This document shows positions 9,830-47,676 of a stretch of 64,000 bases of DNA, piece after piece. Source of the DNA: Opitutaceae bacterium. GTDB lineage: Bacteria > Verrucomicrobiota > Verrucomicrobiia > Opitutales > Opitutaceae. The position numbers were made by a program, and so were the translations under genes. Location: the NCBI GenBank assembly GCA_030648295.1, contig JAUSID010000034.1, positions 1 to 64,000 on the forward strand. Reading direction: 5' to 3'. Under the pieces are notes generated by a model that was given only the letters and a program-made list of their open reading frames with translations, was not told the origin of the DNA and did not search any database. Every line of letters begins with the position of its first letter. Position 1 is the stretch's first letter.

Positions 9830-9945
9830 GGTGGAGCGCGTTGACCTCAACGCGCTTCGTTGATCAGTCGATCGCAGCGACGTTTACGTGTCGCTCGGCA
9901 CAACGCACTCCGACTGCCAGCGGCTTGGGGTCAAGCCGCTCCACC
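9830..9945. repeat. REPIN family 1, copy 1
   Basis: 116-bp unit made of two inverted REP elements. Each end is GGTGGAG followed by an 18-base hairpin. The left stem is CGCGTTG/CAACGCG with loop ACCT; the right stem is CGGCTTG/CAAGCCG with loop GGGT. The two stems differ by compensatory changes, which shows that structure rather than sequence is conserved. The second copy lies at 10470-10585 in the same orientation, with four base differences. Confidence 0.9.
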
Positions 9946-9962
9946 TCGGTGCGGGTTCCGAA

Positions 9963-10454
9963 TTACGTTTCCACTCCGCCACGGTGAAACTCCGCCGGGA
10001 GCAACTTATTTTCCACGGCCGCGCTCCACCACCACGGCCATTGCTCCTCGGTTGCCGAGAGTGCCTTCACCACTGGATTGCGACGGATGTATCCCCACTT
10101 TCCCTGCGCCTCGGCTTCGTTTCGGAGCCGATGATCGAAATACCCCTCCTGCCATTCGATCTGTTGGTAGCGGGCCGTGCCTCGCTTCCAGTTCCGCGCG
10201 ACTTCCGACATACCCGGTTCGGCCGGAAAACCGAGAATCGCGTGTGTATGATCCGGCATCAGCAGAAACAGTTCGCACCACCAATGCCCAAGGTCGTGAT
10301 AACGTTTTGCAGCGCGCAGAAGATCGATTGCAAGCACTGGCTCGGTCAGAAGTGAAATTTGCGCTGAAGTTACGCGAAAACGGATGTGATACGCTGAACC
10401 GTCAGGGACCCATCCCGGCGTGTTGTGGTACAGTCGCTGCGGATAGGTCGACAT
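9963..10454 (-). CDS. REP-associated tyrosine transposase (RAYT, IS200/Y1 family)
   Basis: 163 residues from the ATG at 10454; the longer frame upstream only translates the neighbouring REPIN. Y1-transposase landmarks are YHIRFRV (22-28), the HUH motif in LLMPDHTHAIL (His69 and His71), YFDHRLRN (105-112) and YIRRNPVVKAL (122-132), which carries the likely catalytic Tyr. RAYTs nick and mobilise REP hairpins in trans. The gene sits tightly between two REPINs, 17 bp after one and 15 bp before the other, and has no inverted-repeat ends of its own, as expected for this domesticated class. Confidence 0.92.
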   Translation of the reverse strand: MSTYPQRLYHNTPGWVPDGSAYHIRFRVTSAQISLLTEPVLAIDLLRAAKRYHDLGHWWCELFLLMPDHTHAILGFPAEPGMSEVARNWKRGTARYQQIEWQEGYFDHRLRNEAEAQGKWGYIRRNPVVKALSATEEQWPWWWSAAVENKLLPAEFHRGGVET

Positions 10455-10469
10455 TCCTGAGTGACTAAC

Positions 10470-10585
10470 GGTGGAGCGCGTTGACCTCAACGCGCTTCGT
10501 CGATCAGTCGATCGCAGCGACGTTTTCGTATCGCTCGGCAGAACGCACTCCGACTGCCAGCGGCTTGGGGTCAAGCCGCTCCACC
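10470..10585. repeat. REPIN family 1, copy 2
   Basis: 116-bp direct repeat of 9830-9945, with the same GGTGGAG ends and 7-bp REP stems. Both REP stems are identical to copy 1; the four differences fall in the central spacer (cttcgTtgatc/cttcgCgatc region, gtttacgtg/gttttcgta, ggcac/ggcag). Confidence 0.9.
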
Positions 10586-10643
10586 TCGATGCCTATTTTC
10601 CTCATGCGAATGGACCGCGCTACGCCGACAGCAACGCCGCCGC

Positions 10644-10672
10644 CCTAGGTTTTCGCGGAGCGAAAACCTAGG
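10644..10672. terminator. Perfect 13-bp hairpin downstream of hipA
   Basis: CCTAGGTTTTCGC and GCGAAAACCTAGG form a perfect stem around a GGA loop. It lies 86 bp beyond the hipA stop codon on the minus strand. It has no T-run, so it may be a terminator, a transcript-stabilising hairpin or another dispersed palindrome. Confidence 0.4.
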
Positions 10673-10757
10673 GGCTGGAGGGCGCCGCCGGAGGCAGAGC
10701 AGCGAATCAGCCACGTTCCGCGCGAGACGCGATGCGAAATCCGCGCCGCGGGGTCGG

Positions 10758-12026
10758 TCAGGACGCGTCCAACACGGGCTCGATCAACGCGATGTCGCCG
10801 CGGCTCAGCGCGAGGCGTCTGGCCTTCTCACGCCACGTGGCGAGCACCGACCGCACGCGCGCGAGGATCTCGTTCGCGGCGGCCGCGTCGAGGCCGTAGA
10901 AGCCGGCCGTGTCGAGCGCCAGCTGCACGTCTCCGGTATGGTCGCGCCCGTCGATCGCGAGCGCGTGCTGCGTGGCGCCAGGGTTGACGTTCACGTCGTA
11001 GGACGGCGCGAGCCGCCATCCGTCGCCGGAGTAGATGAAGCCGTGGTTGCGCAGATGGTCGTCTGTGTTCCGGACGAGGACGTTGAACACGACGCGCGTC
11101 CAGAGCTGGCCCAAGTCCGCCGCGATGTGGTCCGCGCTCCCGCGGGTCTGCACGTAGTCGGCGAGCTCGAGGTAGCTTCCACCCGAGCCGTCCTCGCGCT
11201 GCAGGAGTGTCATTGCGGAAACGAAGAAACGCCGGCGGGCACCCGCGCGATCGAAGCGCTGGCACGCGAAGGTGCGATACTCGCTGCCCAGCTTGAACAC
11301 GCGGGCAGCCGGCACGTCGATGCCGGCTTCGGCCGCGAGCTGATGCACGAGCATCTCGAGGGCGCCGACATCGCGGCGGTCCTGCCGGCTCTGGAACTTC
11401 GCGATCCAGAGCGAGCCGTCCGTGTCGGTGAAGTTCGCCTTCGGCCGGTGGCCGCCGAGCGAGCTGCCCGGCGCGAGCAGCGCGGTAAGCCACGCGCGAT
11501 ACTGCGGCGAGTCCTCGGCGTCGGGATTCTCGAGAGAGAGCGCGGCGGCCTCCAGTTCGCGCAGCGTGGCGAGCGGCGGCGCGGCGTGGTGCTCGTCGTT
11601 GTCGAGAAACGGGCCGTCCGCCGTCGCCCGGAAACGCAGCGCGCCCATGCGCGCGGTGTCGTGCACGCCGAGCAGGAAGTCCCATTCGCCGAGCGTGCGC
11701 GCCGCGCGGTTCTCCGCGCGCGCGCGCATCGCCTCGCGGCGCTCGAGCAGCACGCGGCCCCACCGGTCCGGCGCGGAATCGAGGAAGATCCGGAAGACGC
11801 CCGCGGTGTTCGCCGGGTAGGTTTCGCCGCCGACCAGCTGGAGGCCGGGATCGATCTCGAAGGCGTCCGGCCGCCGCAGCCAGGCGTCGTCGTATTCGAA
11901 CGAGAAGACGCCGCCGCCGCGGCCCGAGGCGTGGTAGAGCGTGCCGACGGGGCACGCCTCCGGCACGACGTCCGCGTCGAGGACGACCTGCACTTCATCC
12001 CGGGCCGCCCTGGACTTCGCGCTCAT
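10758..12026 (-). CDS. hipA: HipA-family serine/threonine kinase toxin
   Basis: 422 residues. HipA toxins phosphorylate translation-related targets (GltX in E. coli) and cause growth arrest until neutralised by HipB. Visible landmarks are an N-terminal couple_hipA-like region (GGVFSFEYDDAWL, about residues 36-48), the nucleotide-binding GGHRPKANF motif with the ATP lysine nearby (LWIAKF), the catalytic loop VLVRNTDDHLRNHGF and the Mg-binding LAPSYDVN. The start codon overlaps the stop of the HTH gene upstream as ATGA, so toxin translation is coupled to the antitoxin. All core kinase residues seem intact, so this looks like a functional module. Confidence 0.9.
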   Translation of the reverse strand: MSAKSRAARDEVQVVLDADVVPEACPVGTLYHASGRGGGVFSFEYDDAWLRRPDAFEIDPGLQLVGGETYPANTAGVFRIFLDSAPDRWGRVLLERREAMRARAENRAARTLGEWDFLLGVHDTARMGALRFRATADGPFLDNDEHHAAPPLATLRELEAAALSLENPDAEDSPQYRAWLTALLAPGSSLGGHRPKANFTDTDGSLWIAKFQSRQDRRDVGALEMLVHQLAAEAGIDVPAARVFKLGSEYRTFACQRFDRAGARRRFFVSAMTLLQREDGSGGSYLELADYVQTRGSADHIAADLGQLWTRVVFNVLVRNTDDHLRNHGFIYSGDGWRLAPSYDVNVNPGATQHALAIDGRDHTGDVQLALDTAGFYGLDAAAANEILARVRSVLATWREKARRLALSRGDIALIEPVLDAS

Positions 12027-12313
12027 CTGTCACCTTTCCGCGCAGGTGCGATCTTGCGGACGGGGAGCTCGAGGTCCTGCAGCTTGCGCCCAAGCACGTC
12101 GTCGCGCGCGACGAGGTCCAGGTCACCGGGCAAGCCGAGCACCCGGAGCACGTTCGCGTAGGTACCCATGCTCACCGCGGGATCGCCCTTCTCCACTTTA
12201 TAGAGCGTCATCCGGGTCACGCCGGCGCGCGCCGCGACTGTCGCCGCCGAATAGCGGCGCCTGAGCCGGGCCAGCTTCAGCCGTTCGCCAAGCTCGCGCA
12301 GTTGCTTGGCCAA
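12023..12313 (-). CDS. hipB: HipB-like XRE-family HTH antitoxin/repressor
   Basis: 96 residues with an XRE helix-turn-helix (about residues 7-63; YSAATVAARAGVTRMTLYKVEKGDPAVSM in pieces). It should bind its own promoter and HipA. The only sensible start is a TTG at 12313, since the next Met lies inside the HTH; no clear ribosome-binding site is seen, which could keep expression low. The gene overlaps hipA by 4 bp. Upstream lies an AT-rich segment with an inverted repeat fitting autoregulation. Confidence 0.87.
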   Translation of the reverse strand: MAKQLRELGERLKLARLRRRYSAATVAARAGVTRMTLYKVEKGDPAVSMGTYANVLRVLGLPGDLDLVARDDVLGRKLQDLELPVRKIAPARKGDR

Positions 12314-47178: not shown

Positions 47179-47676
47179 CCCACTCGAGGTAACAACTGGG
47201 AGAACGCGTCCCACTCCGACCATTAGTCCACAAAACGCCAGTGCCAACCTCTCCCGGCGTCTTGCGCGCTTGCGCGCTCTCTCAACGTGATCGATATCGT
47301 GTCGCCGTCGGCGCCAATCGATCCGCTAACCGCACTTCACTCCCTTTCCACCAGCCCCGGTCTCACGTTCTCTCATGCCAGTATCCCACCGGGTGCCGGC
47401 GAGCAGCTCTCTCTTCCCCTGCCGCAAACCAGCCCGTTGGGGACAACGGGCTCCACCCGTCAACCGGCCCGCTTCCAGCCTCACTTTTTGTCCGCTGAAA
47501 AGATAGGTCACCGAACCGAGGGCGGAAAATTGAGTTTCAGTTCGTGATGACTTCCGTGCAGCATTGATACAGTTCATCGGGAAGTCCGGCCTCGAAGTCA
47601 TTTTGACGCGCATCCAGCCGTCGGAATGCGACTGCGACCACCAACACCGAACCCCACCGTCCTGACGCCGATCATC
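47179..47676. other. 498-bp intergenic region before the TonB-receptor operon
   Basis: No intact gene. It contains a short fragment of an AraC sensor domain (47458-47541, minus strand) and must carry the promoter of the operon starting at 47677, which I could not place. Confidence 0.6.
47458..47541 (-). pseudogene. AraC-family sensor-domain scrap
   Basis: 28 codons on the minus strand read ETQFSALGSVTYLFSGQKVR and LEAGRLT, matching the cupin segment LNFLESGTVTYLLGGTKTT...AGKL of the AraC regulator at 28259. It is too short to be a gene. It marks a lost regulator beside the TonB-receptor operon. Confidence 0.6.

Follow-up and report, generated by a model that had tools for sequence, protein, structure and literature searches.

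According to the literature, RAYTs and their REPs co-evolve. The tetranucleotide GTA/GG serves as the general definition of the REP tag, and many GTGG classes have been described in Pseudomonas (PMC3686654, in part; sources so marked are represented here by a portion of their text). Units composed of a RAYT gene and its REPs have been named REPtrons, and GTGG-enriched genes were noted within subclass 2.2 of the TnpA-Y1 proteins, although the word "verrucomicrobi" is absent from the main text of that paper (PMC6006769, in part). In E. coli TnpA-REP, strand beta-1 is among the regions contacting the tag, which is also contacted by Q95 and R104, and in vitro TnpA-Mb was found to cut a GTGG substrate at CC, with cleavage at CA persisting (PMC8266576, in part). 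Within the Verrucomicrobiota, Opitutus terrae is highly enriched in GTAG-type repeats, and the majority of GTAG-20 elements bear GTGG (Di Nocera 2013; PMC3733652, in part).

The locus considered here lies in a stretch of 64,000 nucleotides from Opitutaceae bacterium (assembly GCA_030648295.1, contig JAUSID010000034.1, positions 1 to 64,000), hereafter called the window. It is an ordinary REPtron in a phylum that already had recorded REPs. In our preferred reading, to which we assign a probability of about 0.87, a HUH/Y1 nuclease gene stands between two doublets of its cognate REPs and is the likely source of the tens of REPINs in the genome. With the E. coli REPtron (y/z REPs, structure 4ER8) the locus shares the HUH/Y1 fold, the inverted REP pairs flanking the gene and the unlike arms, and in a profile alignment the tag-contacting residues Q95 and R104 of 4ER8 correspond to Q102 and R111. 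It differs in its 9-bp stem, which is perfect and lacks the bulge seen in E. coli, and in carrying GTGG instead of GTAG. The REPINs of Pseudomonas fluorescens and Stenotrophomonas likewise exhibit a GT(A/G)G tag, spaced inverted doublets and RAYT-specific REP classes, but in pseudomonads the stem is shorter and set at a distance from the tag, whereas here the tag directly abuts the stem; moreover, P. fluorescens SBW25 contains hundreds of doublets as opposed to tens (PMC3116915 and PMC3686654, both in part). REPtron organization and GT[AG]G feet are shared with the TnpA-Y1 subclasses (PMC6006769, in part). The likeness to GTAG-20 of Opitutus terrae, a verrucomicrobial family with a GTGG majority, is one of description and not of sequence; its presence in print takes away the novelty that a first-pass annotation had seen in GGTGGAG-headed REPs of a verrucomicrobium (PMC3733652, in part).

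Organization of the Locus

A RAYT gene between two 97%-identical, directly oriented 116-bp REPINs had been proposed from the sequence alone, and this layout is confirmed (Table 1). The REPIN copies are spaced 640 bp apart and differ at 4/116 positions, all of them within the 62-nt spacer, with tags, stems and loops being identical. The gap to the RAYT gene measures 15 bases on its 5' side and 17 bases on its 3' side, and REPs are thus located on either side of the gene, as expected of a REPtron.

Table 1. Features of the REPtron and of one further REP, in window coordinates.
Feature	Position	Strand	Remarks
REPIN downstream of RAYT	9830..9945	+	116 bp, two head-to-head REPs, 62-nt spacer
REP arm	9830..9856	+	GGTGG tag + 9-bp stem AGCGCGTTG/CAACGCGCT, loop ACCT
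REP arm	9919..9945	-	GGTGG tag + 9-bp stem AGCGGCTTG/CAAGCCGCT, loop ACCC
RAYT (TnpA-REP-like HUH/Y1 nuclease)	9963..10454	-	163 aa, ATG at 10454, stop ending at 9963; single copy in genome
RAYT codons 22-27 (Y-H-I-R-F-R), strand beta-1	10374..10391	-	residues 23/25/27 follow tag type in relatives
HUH motif H69-T-H71 of RAYT	10242..10250	-	
RAYT Tyr122	10089..10091	-	aligned to Tyr115 of 4ER8
REPIN upstream of RAYT	10470..10585	+	15 bp before RAYT ATG
REP arm	10470..10496	+	stem AGCGCGTTG/CAACGCGCT
REP arm	10559..10585	-	stem AGCGGCTTG/CAAGCCGCT
Lone REP, same family, elsewhere in window	47431..47457	-	stem AGCCCGTTG/CAACGGGCT

In each REPIN copy two REPs of 27 nt face each other in inverted orientation, and the GGTGG tag of either is directly followed by a perfect 9-bp stem closed by a 4-nt loop containing CC, i.e., a GT(A/G)G tag lies immediately 5' of a palindrome, the arrangement that defines a REP. 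The head had initially been read as GGTGGAG and the stem as 7 bp long; the former resolves into the canonical GTRG tag, in its GTGG variant, plus AG as the first two stem bases, and the stem comprises 9 bp. The compensatory differences noted at the same time do hold, as the arm stems differ by two base pairs, each compensated on both strands. Taken singly, the arms have folding energies near -11 kcal/mol and z values near -4.5, and the whole 116-mers reach z values of -5.96 (copy at 10470) and -4.83 (copy at 9830). The string GGTGGAGCG occurs eight times in the window, compared with 1.18 expected, and four of the eight occurrences are the tags of the two REPINs. A TIRtron (Di Nocera 2013), in which a RAYT-like gene is enclosed by long terminal inverted repeats that have no relation to GTAG REPs, was considered and rejected for this locus, whose flanks are REPs.

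Just past the upstream REPIN, a perfect 14-bp inverted repeat (CCCTAGGTTTTCGC...GCGAAAACCTAGGG) is located at window positions 10643-10673. The REPtron is adjoined by two overlapping minus-strand frames (10758-12313), which we take to resemble a HipA-type kinase and a HipB-type regulator.

The RAYT Protein

The gene call is supported by the match to the NCBIfam model NF047646 (REP_Tyr_transpos; E 1.6e-16, 60.5 bits, which is under the model cut-off of 80), by a profile of 70 rows that matches 4ER8, the E. coli TnpA-REP bound to a REP, at E 2.7e-16, and by the predicted fold. The match to the Pfam family Y1_Tnp (PF01797) is weak, at 14.2 of 23 bits. An AlphaFold2 model (pLDDT 92.1) was found to superimpose on 4ER8 with Z 14.4 (rmsd 3.0, 145 aligned residues), compared with Z 10.3 for the IS608 transposase. 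W101, Q102 and R109 are invariant in the 70 rows, and H69, H71, D107, R111 and Y122 are nearly so. Tyr122 is aligned to Tyr115 of 4ER8, which we take to be the catalytic tyrosine of the E. coli protein. With its HUH motif, this aligned tyrosine and a modelled fold closest to TnpA-REP, the protein belongs, as far as its predicted structure indicates, to the TnpA-REP-type Y1 nucleases.

The genome contains one full RAYT match; the sole other match, on contig C65, spans residues 95-146 at 35% identity. A second, divergent RAYT (locus L046, C65:46596-46961) exhibits several GTAG-tagged hairpins (GTAGCGGAACGCGTGAGCGTTTCG) on both sides, and the same hairpin is found elsewhere, for example at L015.

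Distribution of the REP Family

The genome of the bacterium (9.12 Mb in 294 contigs) was searched in three ways. A BLAST-type search with one REPIN copy returned 39 places, and a covariance model built from 27 REPs yielded at least 77 matches at E<=1 and at least 66 at E<=0.01, counts that are lower bounds since 150 of 11,987 first-look candidates were scored. A pattern fixing 15 bases matched exactly 30 times, and not once in a backwards control. The genome-wide count of REP doublets suggested by the first-pass annotation thus reveals a dispersed family of tens of copies at minimum, largely arranged as inverted doublets, as is characteristic of REPs. Its refutation had been tied to a total of two genomic copies without similar pairs beside related RAYTs; neither is the case.

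Among 25 distinct doublets compared, 23 measure 73-82 bp, and the 116-bp form is restricted to the two at the RAYT gene. These two are atypical of the population, with a spacer of 62 nt as opposed to 20-27 nt in the other doublets. Local duplication probably gave rise to them, since none of the searches returned the long spacer from another place.

The stems of the 27 REPs, rows preselected for at most two mismatches, show covariation: 31 double-change cells were counted against 11.5 after shuffling, and the covariation score was 0.343 against 0.085 (0/500 shuffles). None of the 25 doublets has identical stem cores, where 5.1 such doublets would result if arms were paired at random (P 0.0017). 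Six doublets differ at a single core base; for at most one difference the expectation is 11.2 (P 0.025). Both P values are optimistic, as the copies are related and two of the six (L031 and L034) differ by one broken stem strand only. Unlike arm stems as an obligatory feature were rejected for the broader collection of loci, since at least one identical pair is present in 6/40 GTGG and 5/40 GTAG loci among the labelled loci with head-to-head pairs (duplicates among L267-L271 included).

Similar REPs were also found beside related RAYTs, the other point on which the first-pass annotation had made its refutation depend: all five named Opitutae/Verrucomicrobia MAG loci, whose RAYTs are 59-66% identical, carry GTGG REPs with similar stems next to the gene. 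In a comparison of 57 relatives, the present genome counted in, the REP family (E<=1e-5) was detected in 6/6 genomes with a GTGG-labelled RAYT and in 12/51 without one (Fisher 5e-4). The presence of REPs is therefore not strictly tied to such a RAYT, one genome of the latter group (G029) having 33 matches. G029, G027, G001, G025 and G018 contain 9-33 family REPs with no GTGG-labelled RAYT found, and represent either orphan populations or missed genes.

Origin and Spread of the REPINs

In the REPtron reading, the RAYT would recognize the single-stranded GTGG hairpin, with beta-1 (H23, R25, R27) touching the tag, and would nick near the REP through Tyr122. It would thereby let REPINs be copied or mobilized in trans without moving itself. 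The unlike stems of the two arms would allow two hairpins to form more readily than one long one.

Three other accounts have to be weighed against this one. The direct flanking copies and the compact layout would suit a 756-bp cassette that is itself a mobile IS200/IS605-type insertion sequence with REPIN ends. Such an element moves its gene together with its ends and usually exists in several near-identical copies (mean 4.8 copies, 99.4% identity; table in PMC6006769, in part), whereas here one gene copy and two copies of the 116-bp form are present, the long-spacer ends occur only at this locus, and the top structural match is TnpA-REP and not IS608; this makes the account highly improbable. 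The REPIN-RAYT-REPIN arrangement of the earlier proposal stands; no observation points to movement of the whole cassette as a unit, the gene being single-copy and the 116-bp form having been seen at this place only. It is also unlikely, if less so, that the locus is a relic whose intact RAYT no longer mobilizes anything, the REPs persisting as terminators, mRNA stabilizers or supercoiling sites. A single-copy RAYT, a modest and diverged REP population, and REPs in the aforementioned 12/51 relatives would be in agreement with this, but the gene keeps its open frame, the HUH motif, Q102, D107, R111 and Y122, and the arms are identical in both RAYT-flanking REPINs while the spacer differs at four bases. 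Conserved sequence past the tags in 15/25 REPINs (by a consensus derived from the same data) points to a further scenario, in which the dispersed copies spread mainly inside a larger, MITE-like palindromic repeat by means of another transposase and the RAYT plays a small role. The outer arms of this repeat read ...CAGTCGAA, REPIN, TTTCAGTGGATTCG...CGACTGCATCGTT.CGGCT, and the outermost palindrome and an ACCGCGAATGGACGC stretch also have matches in other places where the REPIN-side part is lacking. However, the flank score is missed by 10/25 doublets, both RAYT-flanking ones among them, and similar REPs occur beside related RAYTs in other genomes, so that we consider this scenario rather doubtful as the main route, slightly more so than the relic; as a contribution, another, larger unit may have helped to spread REPINs.

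The outer flanks were seen at L120, L122, L127, L018, L013 and L016 of the same genome, with palindromes such as CGGCTAAGCCG located further out. Some of this outer flank sequence forms an independent dispersed repeat with CGCGAATGGACGC. Both REPINs of the window carry, within their spacers (at 9904 and 10544), the sequence CGCACTCCGACTGC, which closely resembles a piece of the outer arm.

Tag Base 3 and Residues of Strand Beta-1

The relation between RAYT and tag was analyzed at 271 RAYT loci of the phylum, collected in three rounds, whose proteins are mostly about 35-60% identical to that of the window; they were drawn from the matches listed, with 2 + 6 partial and many, mostly weaker, matches lying outside the set. 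Hairpins of 8-9 bp within 900 bases were tallied by the G..G 4-mer at their foot, without presetting the tag. A locus received a label when two or more of its hairpins carried GTAG or GTGG, the majority setting the label. Whole-locus scans labelled 200/271 loci, compared with 5/271 when read backwards; 38/134, 19/83 and 18/54 loci of rounds 1, 2 and 3, respectively, fell below two hairpins with a majority. L080 has no frame and was left out, and L081 and L266 are one gene.

The 134 loci with a frame in round 1 included 70 GTAG and 26 GTGG loci, and the alignment columns most strongly associated with the tag were 27, 34, 23 and 25. The GTAG loci carry F23 (69/70), T25 (70/70) and C27 or N27 (69/70), whereas H23-x-R25 is found in 21/25 readable GTGG loci, the others being L064 and L188 (H27), L243 (G27) and L221 (N27). 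The resulting rule was fixed in writing before round 2, whose genomes were new to the count but often of the same genera. From its 64 labelled loci, four repeats of loci already seen and one unreadable locus were removed, and the rule proved correct for 57 of the 59 tested: HxR predicted GTGG in 30/30 cases and F-T-C/N predicted GTAG in 26/26, with L315 (G27) being GTGG. It failed for L331 and for L318, a mixed locus with three GTAG and two GTGG hairpins. The 54 loci of round 3 include 50 that lie outside the class, and 36 of the 54 were labelled; R25 was present in 7/7 GTGG and 0/29 GTAG loci. In the pooled set (194/196 labelled loci, L060 and L239 being left out here and in the tree; 193 readable), all 62 loci with R25 are GTGG, and the 131 without it are divided into 126 GTAG and 5 GTGG loci. 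These five carry H27 (two), G27 (two) or N27 (one) in place of the usual C27. The GTAG-bearing E. coli 4ER8 also obeys the rule, with F15/T17/N19 aligned to H23/R25/R27 of the window RAYT, a further difference from the E. coli REPtron. In the predicted model, beta-1 comprises residues 21-28, and positions 23, 25 and 27 alternate along the strand.

Simpler rules were rejected. Position 27 is not sufficient, as L331 (Q27), L318 (P27), L380 (S27) and one K27 row are GTAG and L221 (N27) is GTGG, and H23 alone is not enough either, since L404 (H23-V25-C27) is GTAG. Among unlabelled HxR-like loci, L168, L187, L288 and L297 each show a single GTGG hairpin, L304 has one of each type, L309 has one GTAG, and L280 and L301 have none; the unlabelled L294 (HLRGR) and L295 (HTQIR) have one GTAG and one GTGG hairpin, respectively. 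The base that opens the stem shifts along with the tag: G predominates next to GTAG, and A next to GTGG. More than one feature has therefore changed together with the tag.

Within the group, prediction of the tag is excellent; the independence of the events is thin. We consider it an even bet that RAYTs of the Verrucomicrobiota read tag base 3 through alternate residues of beta-1, with F23-x-T25-x-[C/N]27 specifying GTAG and H23-x-R25-x-R27 specifying GTGG, and with a change at position 27 alone (C to H/G) accompanying further switches. If the cut is guided by the same tag base, as the in vitro work on TnpA-Mb suggests, a few residues would redirect substrate choice and cut site alike. The competing explanation, that one clade happens to have both R25/R27 and GTGG by shared ancestry and that no recognition code exists, falls a little short of even odds. 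A tree of 101 rows, built with the trait columns excluded, requires five tag changes and a quick tree of 193 rows six, and so small a number keeps shared ancestry in play. R25 itself changes only twice, and an AU test did not reject HxR rows as a single clade (p 0.245). Among the pairings listed, independent pairs number at most six, none of them opposite, and three (101-row tree) or one (193-row tree) lie on well-supported branches; with so few, a sign test is unable to reach 0.05. Against ancestry alone, the GTAG rows L171 and L177 (F-T-N) lie inside the HxR clade (support 96/90, inner placement weak), substitutions at position 27 are seen in all five GTGG loci that lack R25, and beta-1 is one of the tag-contacting regions of E. 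coli TnpA-REP (PMC8266576, in part).

In the literature searched, mainly open-access and including several papers in part, no report of this link between beta-1 and the tag was found. For RAYTs beyond the E. coli group, the portions of the papers examined do not settle which residues read the tag. The present loci bring together related RAYTs of either tag type, and in them a brief, structurally plausible set of residues predicts the tag. If the link is true, natural tag switches make RAYT-REP co-evolution testable residue by residue, and the residue set could help to assign orphan REP families to RAYTs.

In a scan for CT (99 GTAG loci) or CC (66 GTGG loci, duplicates among L267-L271 still included) at fixed positions up to 26 bases on either side of the REPs, neither dinucleotide stood out; the one conspicuous feature was the AG before the tag. 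Searches by tblastn on plasmids, outside the phylum, gave one weak record for P0001 and two for L058. At L255, two GTAG and two GTGG hairpins surround one RAYT gene, a possible intermediate. Other feet were found as well, namely GCAG at L208 and L228 and GGAG at the single gene L081/L266, indicating that the second tag base varies too.
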